From assembly GCA_027859205.1 (NCBI GenBank), contig JAQIBH010000195.1, positions 1-32,848 on the forward strand: a stretch of DNA of 32,848 nucleotides, read 5' to 3'. The DNA is from Bacteroidales bacterium (GTDB lineage: Bacteria; Bacteroidota; Bacteroidia; Bacteroidales; UBA12077). The notes beneath the pieces were generated by a model. That model was not told the origin of the DNA. It searched no databases and worked only from the letters and a program-made list of their open reading frames with translations. Positions within the stretch are counted from its first letter, which is position 1. Each line of letters starts with the position of its first letter. Shown piece by piece: positions 220-9,543 of the stretch. A program made the position numbers and the translations under genes.

Positions 220-888
220 TTATATCTTATTATAATAATTAATTAATTCTATCATCTTGTTTTCATTCACAATTATAATAAATTTCTTTTTCAGATAATC
301 ATGAAAAGGCTTTTTATCAGACAAAATATCAAGAAAACTTCCTTTGGTTTTATTCATTAAAACGGCTGGTCCAGAACCCTTTTTTATGTAATATTCCTTA
401 ATAACTGATGATGTAGGTGCAGCATCAGAAGTTCCAAGAATCTTGTTAACTCTATAATCCTGCTCATTAGACCTTATATACCTTCTCTTAAGTAATTTGC
501 ATTCGCCATTTGCTATCACCTCAAAGTATCCGGAATAAATAAGATCTTCGCTAAGTACATAATCAGAATATATAAATTTTTGTACCCCAATAGAAATAAT
601 TTTTACCGATGACGGTTCTATTATCGATTTTAATTCAATTTGATCAGTAAAAATATTATATCGATAAAGATATCCATTAACATTCCTATCATTTTCTAAT
701 TGGATTAAACCTCCTTGCCATTCCTCATTTAAAAAGTAATTTACATTACTTAGTTTAACCTGTTTCTGGGTAAATGGTTCGATGGTTAAGCTATTTACCG
801 ACTCTTTATTGTTCAAATAACCAGGTCCTTGACCTTTAGCAACAATAACAGAACCTAACATTACAATTATTAAAAGTGTTCTTTTCAT
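220..888 (-). CDS. secreted protein of unknown function
   Basis: The protein has 222 residues and begins with a clear signal peptide (MKRTLLIIVMLGSVIVAKGQ). A Met eight codons upstream (position 912) is also in frame, but the signal peptide starts naturally at 888, so I prefer that start. The mature part contains no transmembrane segment and no motif I can assign. It is rich in beta-forming residues and carries a central block around NEEWQGG, NGYLYRYN and QKFIYSD. A periplasmic or outer-membrane-associated role is likely from the signal peptide alone. It is followed by an intrinsic terminator and the group IIC intron. I do not recognise the function. Confidence 0.75.
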   Translation of the reverse strand: MKRTLLIIVMLGSVIVAKGQGPGYLNNKESVNSLTIEPFTQKQVKLSNVNYFLNEEWQGGLIQLENDRNVNGYLYRYNIFTDQIELKSIIEPSSVKIISIGVQKFIYSDYVLSEDLIYSGYFEVIANGECKLLKRRYIRSNEQDYRVNKILGTSDAAPTSSVIKEYYIKKGSGPAVLMNKTKGSFLDILSDKKPFHDYLKKKFIIIVNENKMIELINYYNKI

Positions 889-1164
889 AAGGTTTGTTTC
901 ATATAATTTCATTTGACTACTAATTTTATTATAAGTTTAATTAAAGTTAATAACTTGTTTAGATGACTAGTTTAAAATAGATTTAAAACTCACAAATTTC
1001 ATCATTTTTCCACGAATAGCATCATTTTTTAGTCACCCGCATTTAATTCTAGGTGAAATTTTAGACGTGCAAATATAAGGCATTGTAATTATTAAACACA
1101 AAAAAATCAGTCACAGGAGAATATTACTCAGTGAAATAAATCATATTTCATAAAAACCCCGAAA

Positions 1165-6852: not shown

Positions 6853-8940
6853 TTAGTTTTTTTCGAGATTAAATAAAGGTAAAGTAAAAGTGATTGTAGT
6901 ACCCTTTCCTTTATCACTTTCTACGAAGATGTTGCCATTATTCAAACTAACAAATTCTTTACAAAAGAATAATCCTAATCCTTTTCCTGATTCACCCTGA
7001 GTACCTTTACAATTACCATTATCTAATTGAAAAACTAAGTCCTTTTTTTCATCAGAAATACCTATTCCAGAATCTTTTACCCAAATTTTAGCAAATGAAT
7101 TATTTTCTTCAAATCCAATAATAATTTCTCCTTTTTCGGGAGTGAATTTAACTGCATTATTTAATAAATTCCTAACAACTGCTGACAACATGTTTTGATC
7201 AGCAAAAACTACTATATCCTTAGAACAAATAAATTCTAAACTAATATTTTTAATTTTAGCTATTGGTTTATATATTTCAATTGATTTTAAAATCGCTTTT
7301 TTCAAGTAAAAACTTTTAGGATGAATAGGGAACTTGTTTTGCTGTGTTAATGCCCAATTCAATAAATCATCAACTAATGAAAGTACATTATTAACAGAAA
7401 TCTCAAGTGTTTCTGAAAATTTATAAAGCGAATCATAATCTTGGTTTTCTAACCAATAAGGAATTAAGCGAGCTATACTGTCTACAGATATAAGAGGGCT
7501 TCTTAAATCGTGAGCAATTATTTGAAAAAGCTTATCCTTAGTTTTATTTGATTCTAATAATTCATCATTTTGTTTAGCAATTTCGCTTCGCTGATCAAGG
7601 ATTTTACTATTTTGCTTTTGAAGTAATGTATATAATTTCTTACGCTTTTTATTTTCTAGCCAAAAATAAATCGCTAATAATAGAGTCAAGATTATTGCGA
7701 TAAATAAAATATTTCGTTGAAGACTTTTCTGCTTGTTTTCAACTTCTCTTTTCGACAATTCCAGTTTCTGTAATACCTGTTCTTTCTCCATAAAAGCAAT
7801 CTGCTGTTCACGTTTTTCAGCATCATACTTCTGCTCTAAAGTTGCTATTTGTTTTATCTTTCCCAGATCTAAAATACTATCCTTTAATTCAATATATAAT
7901 TTGGAATATATAAGACCATTTTTATATTGCTTTTGATTTTCATAAGCCCAACACAGACTAAAGGCAATAACAGATTGTTTGCCAAGTTCACCTAACTCCT
8001 TTGCCAATTGGAAACTTTCCAATAAATATTTTTCTCCTTCAGAAAATTTGCCGGTTTTTATTAATACTAAACCAATACCTCGCAGTGTGTAAATTTTTAA
8101 TGATTTTCCTCCTATTTTCTGTTCTAATTCCAAGGCTTTCTGGTAGTAGTAATTGGCTTCAGAATATCTATTTATTTTCAGATAAGCATTACCCGTATTA
8201 TGAAGTAAAAGTGTCTTATCATAATTATTAACTGAAAGTGGAATTAAGTCAAGAGCTTCTTTATAATAATCTAATGCTATTTTAAATTCTCCTTTTGCAT
8301 TATATACTATACCAATATTACTTAAAACAATTGGGATGTTGTCATGTAATTCTAGTTTTTTCTTGATCTCCAGATTCTTGAATTGATATTCTAATGACTT
8401 ATCATATTGTTCCATTTCAAGATAAAGAAGTGCAATATTGTTTATAATTGATGAGATTAATGAGGAATCTTTTAATTCGTTACATATTGCAAGCCCTTGA
8501 AGGAAACTATTTAAAGAAGCTTCATAGTCACCCTTTCTTTTGTATAAATTTCCTAATGAATTTAATGTCAGCCCCTTATAAGATTTATTATTTATATTTT
8601 CAAATATTTCGAACGCCTTTTGAGAATAATCTAATGATTTATCATAATCTCCATAATATCTATAAACTATTCCTAAAATATAGAAACTATAAGCCACACC
8701 ACGCTTATACTCAAGAGATTGTGCTAATTTCAAAGCATCATTTCCTAAAATGAGCGAAGTGTCAATCTGAAATTTTGTATATTTTTTAGCTAATTTTGCT
8801 AGTTTCAATACTTTGTTAGTATCATTTGGCATACTGCGTATCGAAACTAGAATACTGTCAATAGAAATATCAGCATTTATTTTAGTACTATTTAATAATG
8901 CTAATAAACAAATAAATAATATTCCTACTGACCGTTTCAT
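6853..8940 (-). CDS. TPR-containing sensor histidine kinase
   Basis: The protein has 695 residues. A signal sequence (about 1-23) leads to a periplasmic region of tandem tetratricopeptide repeats (about 60-360, for example GDYDKSLDYSQKAFEIF, GNAYLKINRYSEANYYYQKALEL). A coiled coil, one transmembrane helix (about 408-426) and a second coiled coil follow. The HisKA domain has phospho-acceptor His477 in FQIIAHDLRSP. The ATPase domain has an N box (VVRNLLNNAVKFT), a G1 box (KDSGIGIS) and a G2 box (GKGLGLFFCKEF). No receiver domain is present and no response regulator lies next to it. In this family the TPR region is thought to sense a ligand or protein. A 36-residue peptide gene ends 46 bases upstream on the same strand, so the two may be cotranscribed. 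Confidence 0.93.
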   Translation of the reverse strand: MKRSVGILFICLLALLNSTKINADISIDSILVSIRSMPNDTNKVLKLAKLAKKYTKFQIDTSLILGNDALKLAQSLEYKRGVAYSFYILGIVYRYYGDYDKSLDYSQKAFEIFENINNKSYKGLTLNSLGNLYKRKGDYEASLNSFLQGLAICNELKDSSLISSIINNIALLYLEMEQYDKSLEYQFKNLEIKKKLELHDNIPIVLSNIGIVYNAKGEFKIALDYYKEALDLIPLSVNNYDKTLLLHNTGNAYLKINRYSEANYYYQKALELEQKIGGKSLKIYTLRGIGLVLIKTGKFSEGEKYLLESFQLAKELGELGKQSVIAFSLCWAYENQKQYKNGLIYSKLYIELKDSILDLGKIKQIATLEQKYDAEKREQQIAFMEKEQVLQKLELSKREVENKQKSLQRNILFIAIILTLLLAIYFWLENKKRKKLYTLLQKQNSKILDQRSEIAKQNDELLESNKTKDKLFQIIAHDLRSPLISVDSIARLIPYWLENQDYDSLYKFSETLEISVNNVLSLVDDLLNWALTQQNKFPIHPKSFYLKKAILKSIEIYKPIAKIKNISLEFICSKDIVVFADQNMLSAVVRNLLNNAVKFTPEKGEIIIGFEENNSFAKIWVKDSGIGISDEKKDLVFQLDNGNCKGTQGESGKGLGLFFCKEFVSLNNGNIFVESDKGKGTTITFTLPLFNLEKN

Positions 8941-8986
8941 TGAATTCTTTTATTAACAGGCTACCTCAAAGAATAACGACAAATAC

Positions 8987-9097
8987 TTATCCTGGATCCT
9001 CTTCTCCACCTCCTTCACCTCCATCTGGTATATCTGGATCTTCTGGCGGCATACGAGTATTCCATACTAACTTTTTTAATTCTTCTAAATTTTTCAT
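8987..9097 (-). CDS. 36-residue acidic Pro/Gly-rich peptide, copy 1 (upstream of kinase)
   Basis: A short open frame runs from ATG at 9097 to TAA at 8987. It encodes a basic/hydrophobic N-terminus (MKNLEELKKLVWNTRM) and then an acidic tail beginning PPEDPDIPDGG and ending EEDPG. It is real rather than chance because a second frame of exactly the same length lies 300 bases upstream (9395-9505). That copy has the same PPEDP start, the same EEDPG end at the same residues, and an alignable 5' leader. This copy lacks the Gly-Gly pair seen in the other one. It has ten acidic and four basic residues and no Cys. It lies 46 bases ahead of the TPR histidine kinase. I do not recognise the family; precursor of an exported peptide is an inference. 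Confidence 0.6.
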   Translation of the reverse strand: MKNLEELKKLVWNTRMPPEDPDIPDGGEGGGEEDPG

Positions 9098-9139
9098 GCT
9101 TATAAATTTTTAAGTTAAACAATATTACATTAAAGTTAA
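9098..9139 (-). promoter_or_regulatory. 5' leader of peptide gene 1, shared with peptide gene 2
   Basis: On the minus strand the 42 bases before the ATG contain TTAACTTTA, ATATTG, TTAAC and TAAAAATT in that order. The leader of peptide gene 2 holds the same blocks in the same order. The match extends to the start codon, so the duplication included the untranslated leader. Its job (promoter, translation signal or both) is unknown. Confidence 0.45.
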
Positions 9140-9340
9140 TATAAAAATGTACTTATACAATTATCTATAGGCAAAACTCTATATTATCGCATTGAGAATC
9201 AGCTCCTTTCACAAACCCACAATACGTTGGTGAATAAAATTAGAGCATAATTAATTACTCAATATATTTCTTATTTAAAATTTTAAAAATAAAGCTGAAT
9301 GTTCTTTGTTAATTATCCGCTTAAATTTTATTACACACTA

Positions 9341-9370
9341 AAACAAAAATAGCACAAGAAAAACTTGTGC
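9341..9370 (-). terminator. intrinsic terminator behind peptide gene 2
   Basis: GCACAAG (9352-9358) pairs with CTTGTGC (9364-9370) around a 5-base A loop. On the minus strand the stem is followed by a T-rich tract (TATTTTTGTTTT). It lies 24 bases after the stop of peptide gene 2, which suggests that this gene is a separate short transcript and that peptide gene 1 with the kinase has its own promoter. Confidence 0.65.
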
Positions 9371-9394
9371 CTTTAAATTGCAATATTTTTATTA

Positions 9395-9505
9395 CTATCC
9401 TGGATCCTCTTCTCCACTTCCTGGATCTGTTGGCTCTGGATCTTCTGGCGGATTACCCCCTCTAACAACTAACATTTCGTCAATACTTAATTCCTCTGTA
9501 AACAT
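9395..9505 (-). CDS. 36-residue acidic Pro/Gly-rich peptide, copy 2, with double-glycine leader
   Basis: ATG at 9505 to TAG at 9395, 36 residues. Residues 6-17 read LSIDEMLVVRGG. This fits the double-glycine export-leader pattern L-S-x-x-E-L/M-x-x-I/V-x-G-G, with Leu at -12, Ser -11, Glu -8, Met -7, Val -4 and Gly -2/-1. Cleavage after Gly17 would release the 19-residue NPPEDPEPTDPGSGEEDPG, which is strongly acidic, Pro/Gly-rich and free of Cys. Such leaders are known to be cut by C39-peptidase ABC transporters, none of which is in this window. The gene has its own leader and terminator and is a paralogue of the gene at 8987-9097, with 20 or more identical bases at the 3' end. The function is unknown; bacteriocin-like, RiPP or signalling peptide are all open. 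Confidence 0.65.
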   Translation of the reverse strand: MFTEELSIDEMLVVRGGNPPEDPEPTDPGSGEEDPG

Positions 9506-9543
9506 AACTTCTAATTTTTAGGTTAGCAATAATATAAAGTTAA
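9506..9543 (-). promoter_or_regulatory. 5' leader of peptide gene 2, shared with peptide gene 1
   Basis: The 38 bases before the ATG carry TTAACTTTA, TATTATTG, TAAC and TAAAAATT in the same order as the leader of peptide gene 1. Further upstream TTTATTTG (about 9545) resembles the Bacteroidota -7 box TAnnTTTG with one mismatch. Confidence 0.45.

Follow-up and report, generated by a model that had tools for sequence, protein, structure and literature searches.

Acidic tail peptides encoded beside a periplasmic TPR sensor kinase suggest an undescribed peptide-signaling system in a Bacteroidales genus

Introduction

Double-glycine (GG) pheromone systems of the ComC/ComAB/ComDE type are known from streptococci. 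RRNPP receptors (Rap, NprR, PlcR) are cytoplasmic and read re-imported peptides. The signal read by the sensor kinase FimS in Porphyromonas gingivalis is described as unknown, with a small polypeptide suggested as one candidate (PMC11053733). Bacteroidales RiPP clusters combine GG leaders and PCAT export with modification enzymes (rSAM, LanC, YcaO or LanM) and occasionally contain a TPR gene (PMC10352776).

Here, we analyzed a 32,848-nucleotide stretch of DNA from a Bacteroidales bacterium (hereafter the window), in which two small peptide genes precede a TPR sensor histidine kinase. A sequence-only reading of this DNA had proposed that the peptide could be exported and read by the kinase. We compared the locus with genomes of the same genus, of the order and of the class, and the results suggest an undescribed peptide-signaling system at this locus. 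In open-licence papers, we found neither these tail peptides nor any pairing of GG peptides with TPR-CHAT proteins or TPR kinases described.

Results

Two paralogous peptide genes with different leaders precede the kinase

Two frames of 111 bases (36 codons) that both end in EEDPG, as previously described from the sequence, are present on the minus strand at 9395-9505 (peptide A) and 8987-9097 (peptide B). The stop codon of B lies 46 bases ahead of the ATG of the kinase (6853-8940, minus strand, 695 aa), also in agreement with the earlier description. The full translations are MFTEELSIDEMLVVRGGNPPEDPEPTDPGSGEEDPG for A and MKNLEELKKLVWNTRMPPEDPDIPDGGEGGGEEDPG for B. Alignment of the two at the DNA level spans the promoter region, the start codon and the tail up to the stop codon, with a score of 119 compared with 43 for the best of 200 shuffles. 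The 3' ends share 22 identical bases, so that the tail of B (PPEDPDIPDGGEGGGEEDPG, 8990-9049, minus strand) is nearly the same as that of A. Judged by this alignment, A and B are true paralogues. Homologues occupy the same syntenic place in same-genus genomes. The initial observation is confirmed and is stronger than first described.

In peptide A, a canonical double-glycine export leader, EELSIDEMLVVRGG, precedes the core NPPEDPEPTDPGSGEEDPG. The leader (MFTEELSIDEMLVVRGG, 9455-9505, minus strand), read from the sequence and a leader alignment, has GG at -2/-1 and hydrophobic residues at -4 (V), -7 (M) and -12 (L), the pattern that defines GG leaders, as well as E at -8; we claim this class for A only. 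Homologues with the same leader occur in same-genus genomes. The predicted mature core (9398-9454, minus strand), placed by the position of the GG, comprises 19 residues, is acidic and rich in Pro and Gly, and matches the tail of B. In contrast, B has no GG leader, and no signal peptide was found in B or its counterparts. The leaders are therefore not equivalent, and the notion of two equal secreted paralogues finds no support, as B, the more conserved partner, is without a recognizable export signal. Support for the proposed export is limited to A, which has a GG leader and for which a C39-ABC exporter exists elsewhere in the genome.

Comparison of A with B gave a pN/pS of 1.65, because the leaders are divergent and the tail is common. 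Between GG peptides of different genomes, pN/pS was 0.39-0.75. Synonymous change exceeded non-synonymous change in most comparisons, showing coding constraint.

A Pfam search with peptide A, a very short query, gave no match. The leader of A matched TIGR03893 with an E-value of 0.017 and 15.5 bits against a cut-off of 32.95; that short GG leaders fall below such library cut-offs counts against the export reading. This weak match to a type 2 lantibiotic leader would fit A as a precursor from which a bacteriocin or another modified antimicrobial is made, and RiPP clusters of Bacteroidales commonly have GG leaders and C39 transporters (PMC10352776). We consider an antimicrobial precursor very unlikely, however, given that neither A nor B contains Cys, that the cores are strongly acidic, that no modification or immunity gene was recognized by eye among the window ORFs, and that B lacks GG while the linkage to a sensor kinase is genus-wide.

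The exporter lies in a separate locus of a type found across the order

The genome of the window encodes one clear C39-ABC transporter, accompanied by HlyD, on contig C138 (G000:C138; 118.8 bits, cut-off 22), with the catalytic Cys and His present by eye. Thus, the earlier statement that no exporter adjoins the peptides is correct for the neighborhood, but an exporter does exist on another contig. Of 20 genomes of the genus, 18 have a C39-ABC transporter; no match was obtained in G010 and G005, both of which are incomplete MAGs. Judging from G017 (L136), a contig gap interrupts the exporter locus of the window's genome: on one side lies C178, with a TPR-CHAT gene at its end, and on the other C138. 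In G017, the stretch corresponding to this gap holds a GG peptide. The exporter-locus GG peptides of the genus are conserved around a core of a different kind, GGDGDPDDDLWPP, unlike the tails at the kinase locus.

We also searched 393 genomes of the order with the GG peptides and read the retrieved loci together with L018. In most of them, a TPR-CHAT protein lies near a GG peptide whose core is acidic and often rich in Pro, and many also encode a C39-ABC transporter and HlyD. Pfam assigned CHAT in one of these proteins, and the others were recognized through their BLAST similarity to it. The GG peptide/TPR-CHAT loci (L018, L136-L143, L145-L149 and L151-L154) come from many families of the order. 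Small genes that accompany the transporter and HlyD look like ECF sigma and anti-sigma factors, judged from their sequences. The pairing of a GG peptide with a neighboring TPR protein therefore recurs, with either a kinase or CHAT as output. As a tentative extension, to which we give less than an even chance, Bacteroidota would have a peptide-signaling system in which one ligand tail, encoded both in an exported GG form and in a GG-less form, would be read by periplasmic TPR kinases or TPR-CHAT proteins, with a common sensing module, a swapped output, and tails matched within each locus to give locus specificity.

Three further features were seen in these loci. At L145:5537-6458, four tandem GG peptides with a common C-terminus (YPTIDGDFDYWPEPEV) and variable middles lie beside a TPR-CHAT gene. 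At L019:1079-2079, two or three small frames with a LytTR-type look (by reading) stand just before the C39-ABC transporter, and likewise at L136. In G017, an acidic run is common to the exporter-locus GG peptide (L136:4231-4401, DDDDDNWPP) and a kinase-locus peptide (L058:4641-4733, DDDDDNPG), possibly by chance.

A tail ORF accompanies nearly every TPR kinase of the genus

The connection between peptide and kinase had been drawn from position and duplication. Its basis is now wider, as it recurs in nearly every same-genus genome that has the kinase. Tail ORFs were scored by a fixed composition rule, set once the tails were known. By this rule, a tail ORF lay within 450 bases upstream of 18/19 scored TPR kinases compared with 4/191 other genes (about 1/188 without truncated kinases); all these counts are from a single genus, and the events are not independent. 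With a post hoc rule and dependent events, the p-values therefore say only that the linkage pattern is non-chance. At the 19th kinase (G013), a less acidic tail ORF was seen upstream by eye. Of the four other scoring genes, three encode truncated members of this kinase group, and one comes after a GG peptide of the exporter locus. On these comparisons of gene neighborhoods, the link between tail peptide and TPR kinase no longer rests on one position.

The earlier reading had suggested testing whether the tails recur beside TPR kinases in relatives, and within the genus they do. No tail ORF was found upstream of TPR-sensor homologues elsewhere in the class (0/28), a control that speaks for the link to the kinase. 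A test for the HisKA motif was negative in 28/28 of these homologues, so that their output domains probably differ and the control does not strictly consist of TPR-HisKA kinases.

At nearly all loci of the genus, the usual order is an RNA methyltransferase, the small tail ORF(s), the TPR kinase, a 157-aa protein and a 158-aa protein. Restriction to one genus and a region around the kinase that is syntenic in most genomes would also be found if A, B and the kinase had stayed together by descent and not by function. We give this little credence, since G015 keeps the tail ORF despite different upstream neighbors, some genomes have two tandem TPR kinases with a separate tail ORF before each, and tail type tracks the sensor-domain tree, in which a short-tail kinase group, Pro-rich ones included, is well supported.

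The tail is carried either by a B-like peptide of about 30 aa or by a 112-118-aa protein, at a distance from the kinase that ranges from about 9 to some 470 bases. The longer carrier (loci L012, L015-L017, L054-L057, L060, L063, L064, L066 and L068) has 28 invariant columns, several of them within the tail, and pN/pS between the 112-aa proteins is 0.13-0.48. Searches of Pfam and NCBIfam with the 112-aa protein gave weak sub-cut-off matches only and no known family, and it apparently represents an undescribed protein family. This family is essentially confined to the genus: among 393 genomes of the order, a single weak match was found outside it (E-value 0.0018, with an internal stop). An invariant YPY.NLF lies near the start of the carrier, in addition to the conserved tail residues. 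A single-sequence model of the 112-aa carrier had a beta-rich N-terminal part and a mean pLDDT of 47.7, and was dropped as a basis for a fold search.

The position of the tail ORF directly before the kinase would also suit an intracellular role, either as an upstream leader ORF that tunes translation of the kinase or as a small protein that assists or holds back the kinase until it arrives at the membrane; Pro and acidic runs can slow ribosomes. Against such a role, which we regard as improbable, there is wide variation in both distance and carrier, the pN/pS of the 112-aa form shows constraint on the protein, and the tails are held in common with exportable GG peptides.

GG cores resemble the tails of their own loci

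A GG-type peptide is present at 5/18 kinase loci, those of G000 (the window's genome), G005 (where the motif is KGD), G011, G018 and G014. In G000, G005 and G011, no other tail resembles the GG core as closely as that of its own neighbor. When cores and tails were permuted among the five loci, the true assignment was the best of 120, and the locus permutation gave p 5e-5 for the matching. In G018 and G014, the own neighbor ranks fifth among very similar 112-aa tails, which counts against an exported ligand. The most telling case is G011, which carries both tail types: its GG peptide CPEDDPPPPPPPPGPGEDD matches the neighboring Pro-rich peptide PEDPPPPPTPPTPGEDD and not the Gly-rich 112-aa tail. 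In G007 (L065:5781-5990), a frameshifted remnant of a GG leader, LAIEEMLVFKG, remains 3' of the TPR kinase, so that GG forms come and go and the GG-less form stays.

The scarcity of GG peptides at kinase loci and the decayed form in G007 count against active export of the tail, as does the fact that B and its counterparts, the universal partner, have neither a GG leader nor a signal peptide. These features could point to sensing of kin lysis or danger, in which GG-less tail proteins are cytoplasmic and reach the periplasmic TPR kinase of neighbors only on lysis, and the GG form is a secondary, sporadic means of export. GG-less carriers without an export signal do stand at nearly every kinase locus of the genus, and the GG forms are sporadic and decaying. 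Even so, the tails of the GG forms match their own locus, suggesting that active export matters, and the 112-aa carrier would need processing or outer-membrane passage; we consider signaling by lysis unlikely.

The predicted TPR fold is consistent with a peptide ligand

Pfam searches with the kinase placed TPR_12 and HATPase_c above cut-off and HisKA just below it. By eye, a signal sequence and TPR repeats are followed by one TM segment and, after it, KKRKK. A structural model built from two sequences only had a pLDDT of mostly about 90 in the TPR region and was poor elsewhere. The closest solved folds of the modeled TPR domain (residues about 60-353; 7882-8763, minus strand) were the TPRs of LGN and Pins (Z about 30), many with extended peptides bound, followed by designed TPRs, Rap/NprR receptors (Z 20-24) and KLC1. 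As LGN scores above Rap/NprR, the TPR fold is widely shared.

Seven residues of the sensor domain (N127, N131, K134, R135, N168, N208 and N248) are at least 95% conserved across the kinases compared. We take the conserved Asn positions to be those that hold peptide backbones in LGN/Rap-like TPRs. Lys and Arg in the TPR would suit an acidic ligand. The predicted fold and the conserved Asn ladder are consistent with a peptide ligand for the kinase. Two observations count against the proposed signaling: the TPR fold binds many kinds of partner, and no response regulator lies directly beside the kinase.

A promoter-like element precedes the tail ORFs

The element TTAACTTTA occurs 29 bases before the start of A (9535-9543, minus strand) and 33 bases before the start of B (9131-9139, minus strand). 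It was found 12-35 bases before the start at 15/27 tail ORFs compared with 1/246 other ORFs, counts that are not independent because the upstream regions are homologous. The element resembles the Bacteroidota -7 box and may simply be a promoter. A genome scan with a longer promoter-like motif gave 13 sites compared with 29 for the reversed control, showing no enrichment, so no regulon can be claimed. In the compared loci, only one non-tail gene has TTAACTTTA shortly before its start (29 bases), a window gene with a signal-like start (220-912, minus strand, 230 aa).

Discussion

We propose that the acidic Gly/Pro tails are ligands of the periplasmic TPR domain in the adjacent histidine kinase, the tail being exported via the GG form, and we hold the chances of this to be even. 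Peptide A would be made with its double-glycine leader, and the C39-ABC transporter with HlyD would cut after the GG and export the peptide, releasing approximately NPPEDPEPTDPGSGEEDPG. The core would then bind the TPR groove as an extended chain and shift kinase activity, the signal probably passing from cell to cell or serving self-monitoring. Peptide B, which is linked to the kinase and is the better conserved of its two partners, would carry this tail without a GG leader; in relatives, its place is taken by a short peptide or by the tail of a 112-aa protein. The weak point of this mechanism is B, because the conserved partner has no export signal; it could leave by another route, be released on lysis, or act inside the cell.

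If the proposal is correct, Gram-negative Bacteroidota would have a further route of peptide signaling, and the TPR-CHAT loci could be expected to follow a similar scheme with a different output. The locus offers a concrete and cheap test, with a named 19-residue peptide and a named sensor.

In its likely operation, the locus would work like GG-pheromone signaling in which a TPR protein has replaced the polytopic reader. It shares with streptococcal ComC/ComAB/ComDE a short GG-leader peptide, a C39-ABC exporter and a histidine kinase as candidate reader. Unlike in the Com systems, neither exporter nor response regulator adjoins the peptide and a GG-less carrier of the same tail exists, and the reader would be a periplasmic TPR kinase, whereas the Com kinase is polytopic. 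On the features compared, the kinase falls outside the ComD, RRNPP and FimS families. A TPR domain flanked by a signal sequence and a single TM segment serves as its sensor, which sets it apart from ComD-type GG-pheromone kinases. The RRNPP systems (Rap, NprR, PlcR) have the TPR receptor fold (Rap/NprR, Z 20-24) and short secreted peptides in common with this locus; they differ from it in that the TPR domain here is periplasmic, as read by eye from the signal sequence and TM segment, and fused to a kinase, so that the fold agrees with an RRNPP receptor and the location does not.

The order's GG peptide/TPR-CHAT/C39-ABC loci resemble the window's locus in leader type, acidic Pro-rich core and TPR protein neighbor, but have CHAT as output instead of a kinase and usually contain the exporter. 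The Bacteroidales RiPP clusters (PMC10352776) are similar in GG leader, PCAT-type export and TPR gene; here, in contrast, no modification enzyme was recognized and a sensor kinase accompanies the peptides. Lichenicidin A2 type lantibiotics (TIGR03893) were rejected as a family for A, at 15.5 bits against 32.95, with no Cys in A or B and no LanM-like gene among the window ORFs by eye.

FimS is the best NCBIfam match of the kinase (NF053520, 223.6 bits), at a score below the equivalog cut-off of 600 bits that marks membership. Both proteins have a periplasmic TPR domain, HisKA and HATPase, but the kinase described here has small peptide genes upstream and no neighboring response regulator. As the ligand question is open for FimS (PMC11053733), this locus makes the question of what periplasmic TPR kinases bind testable.
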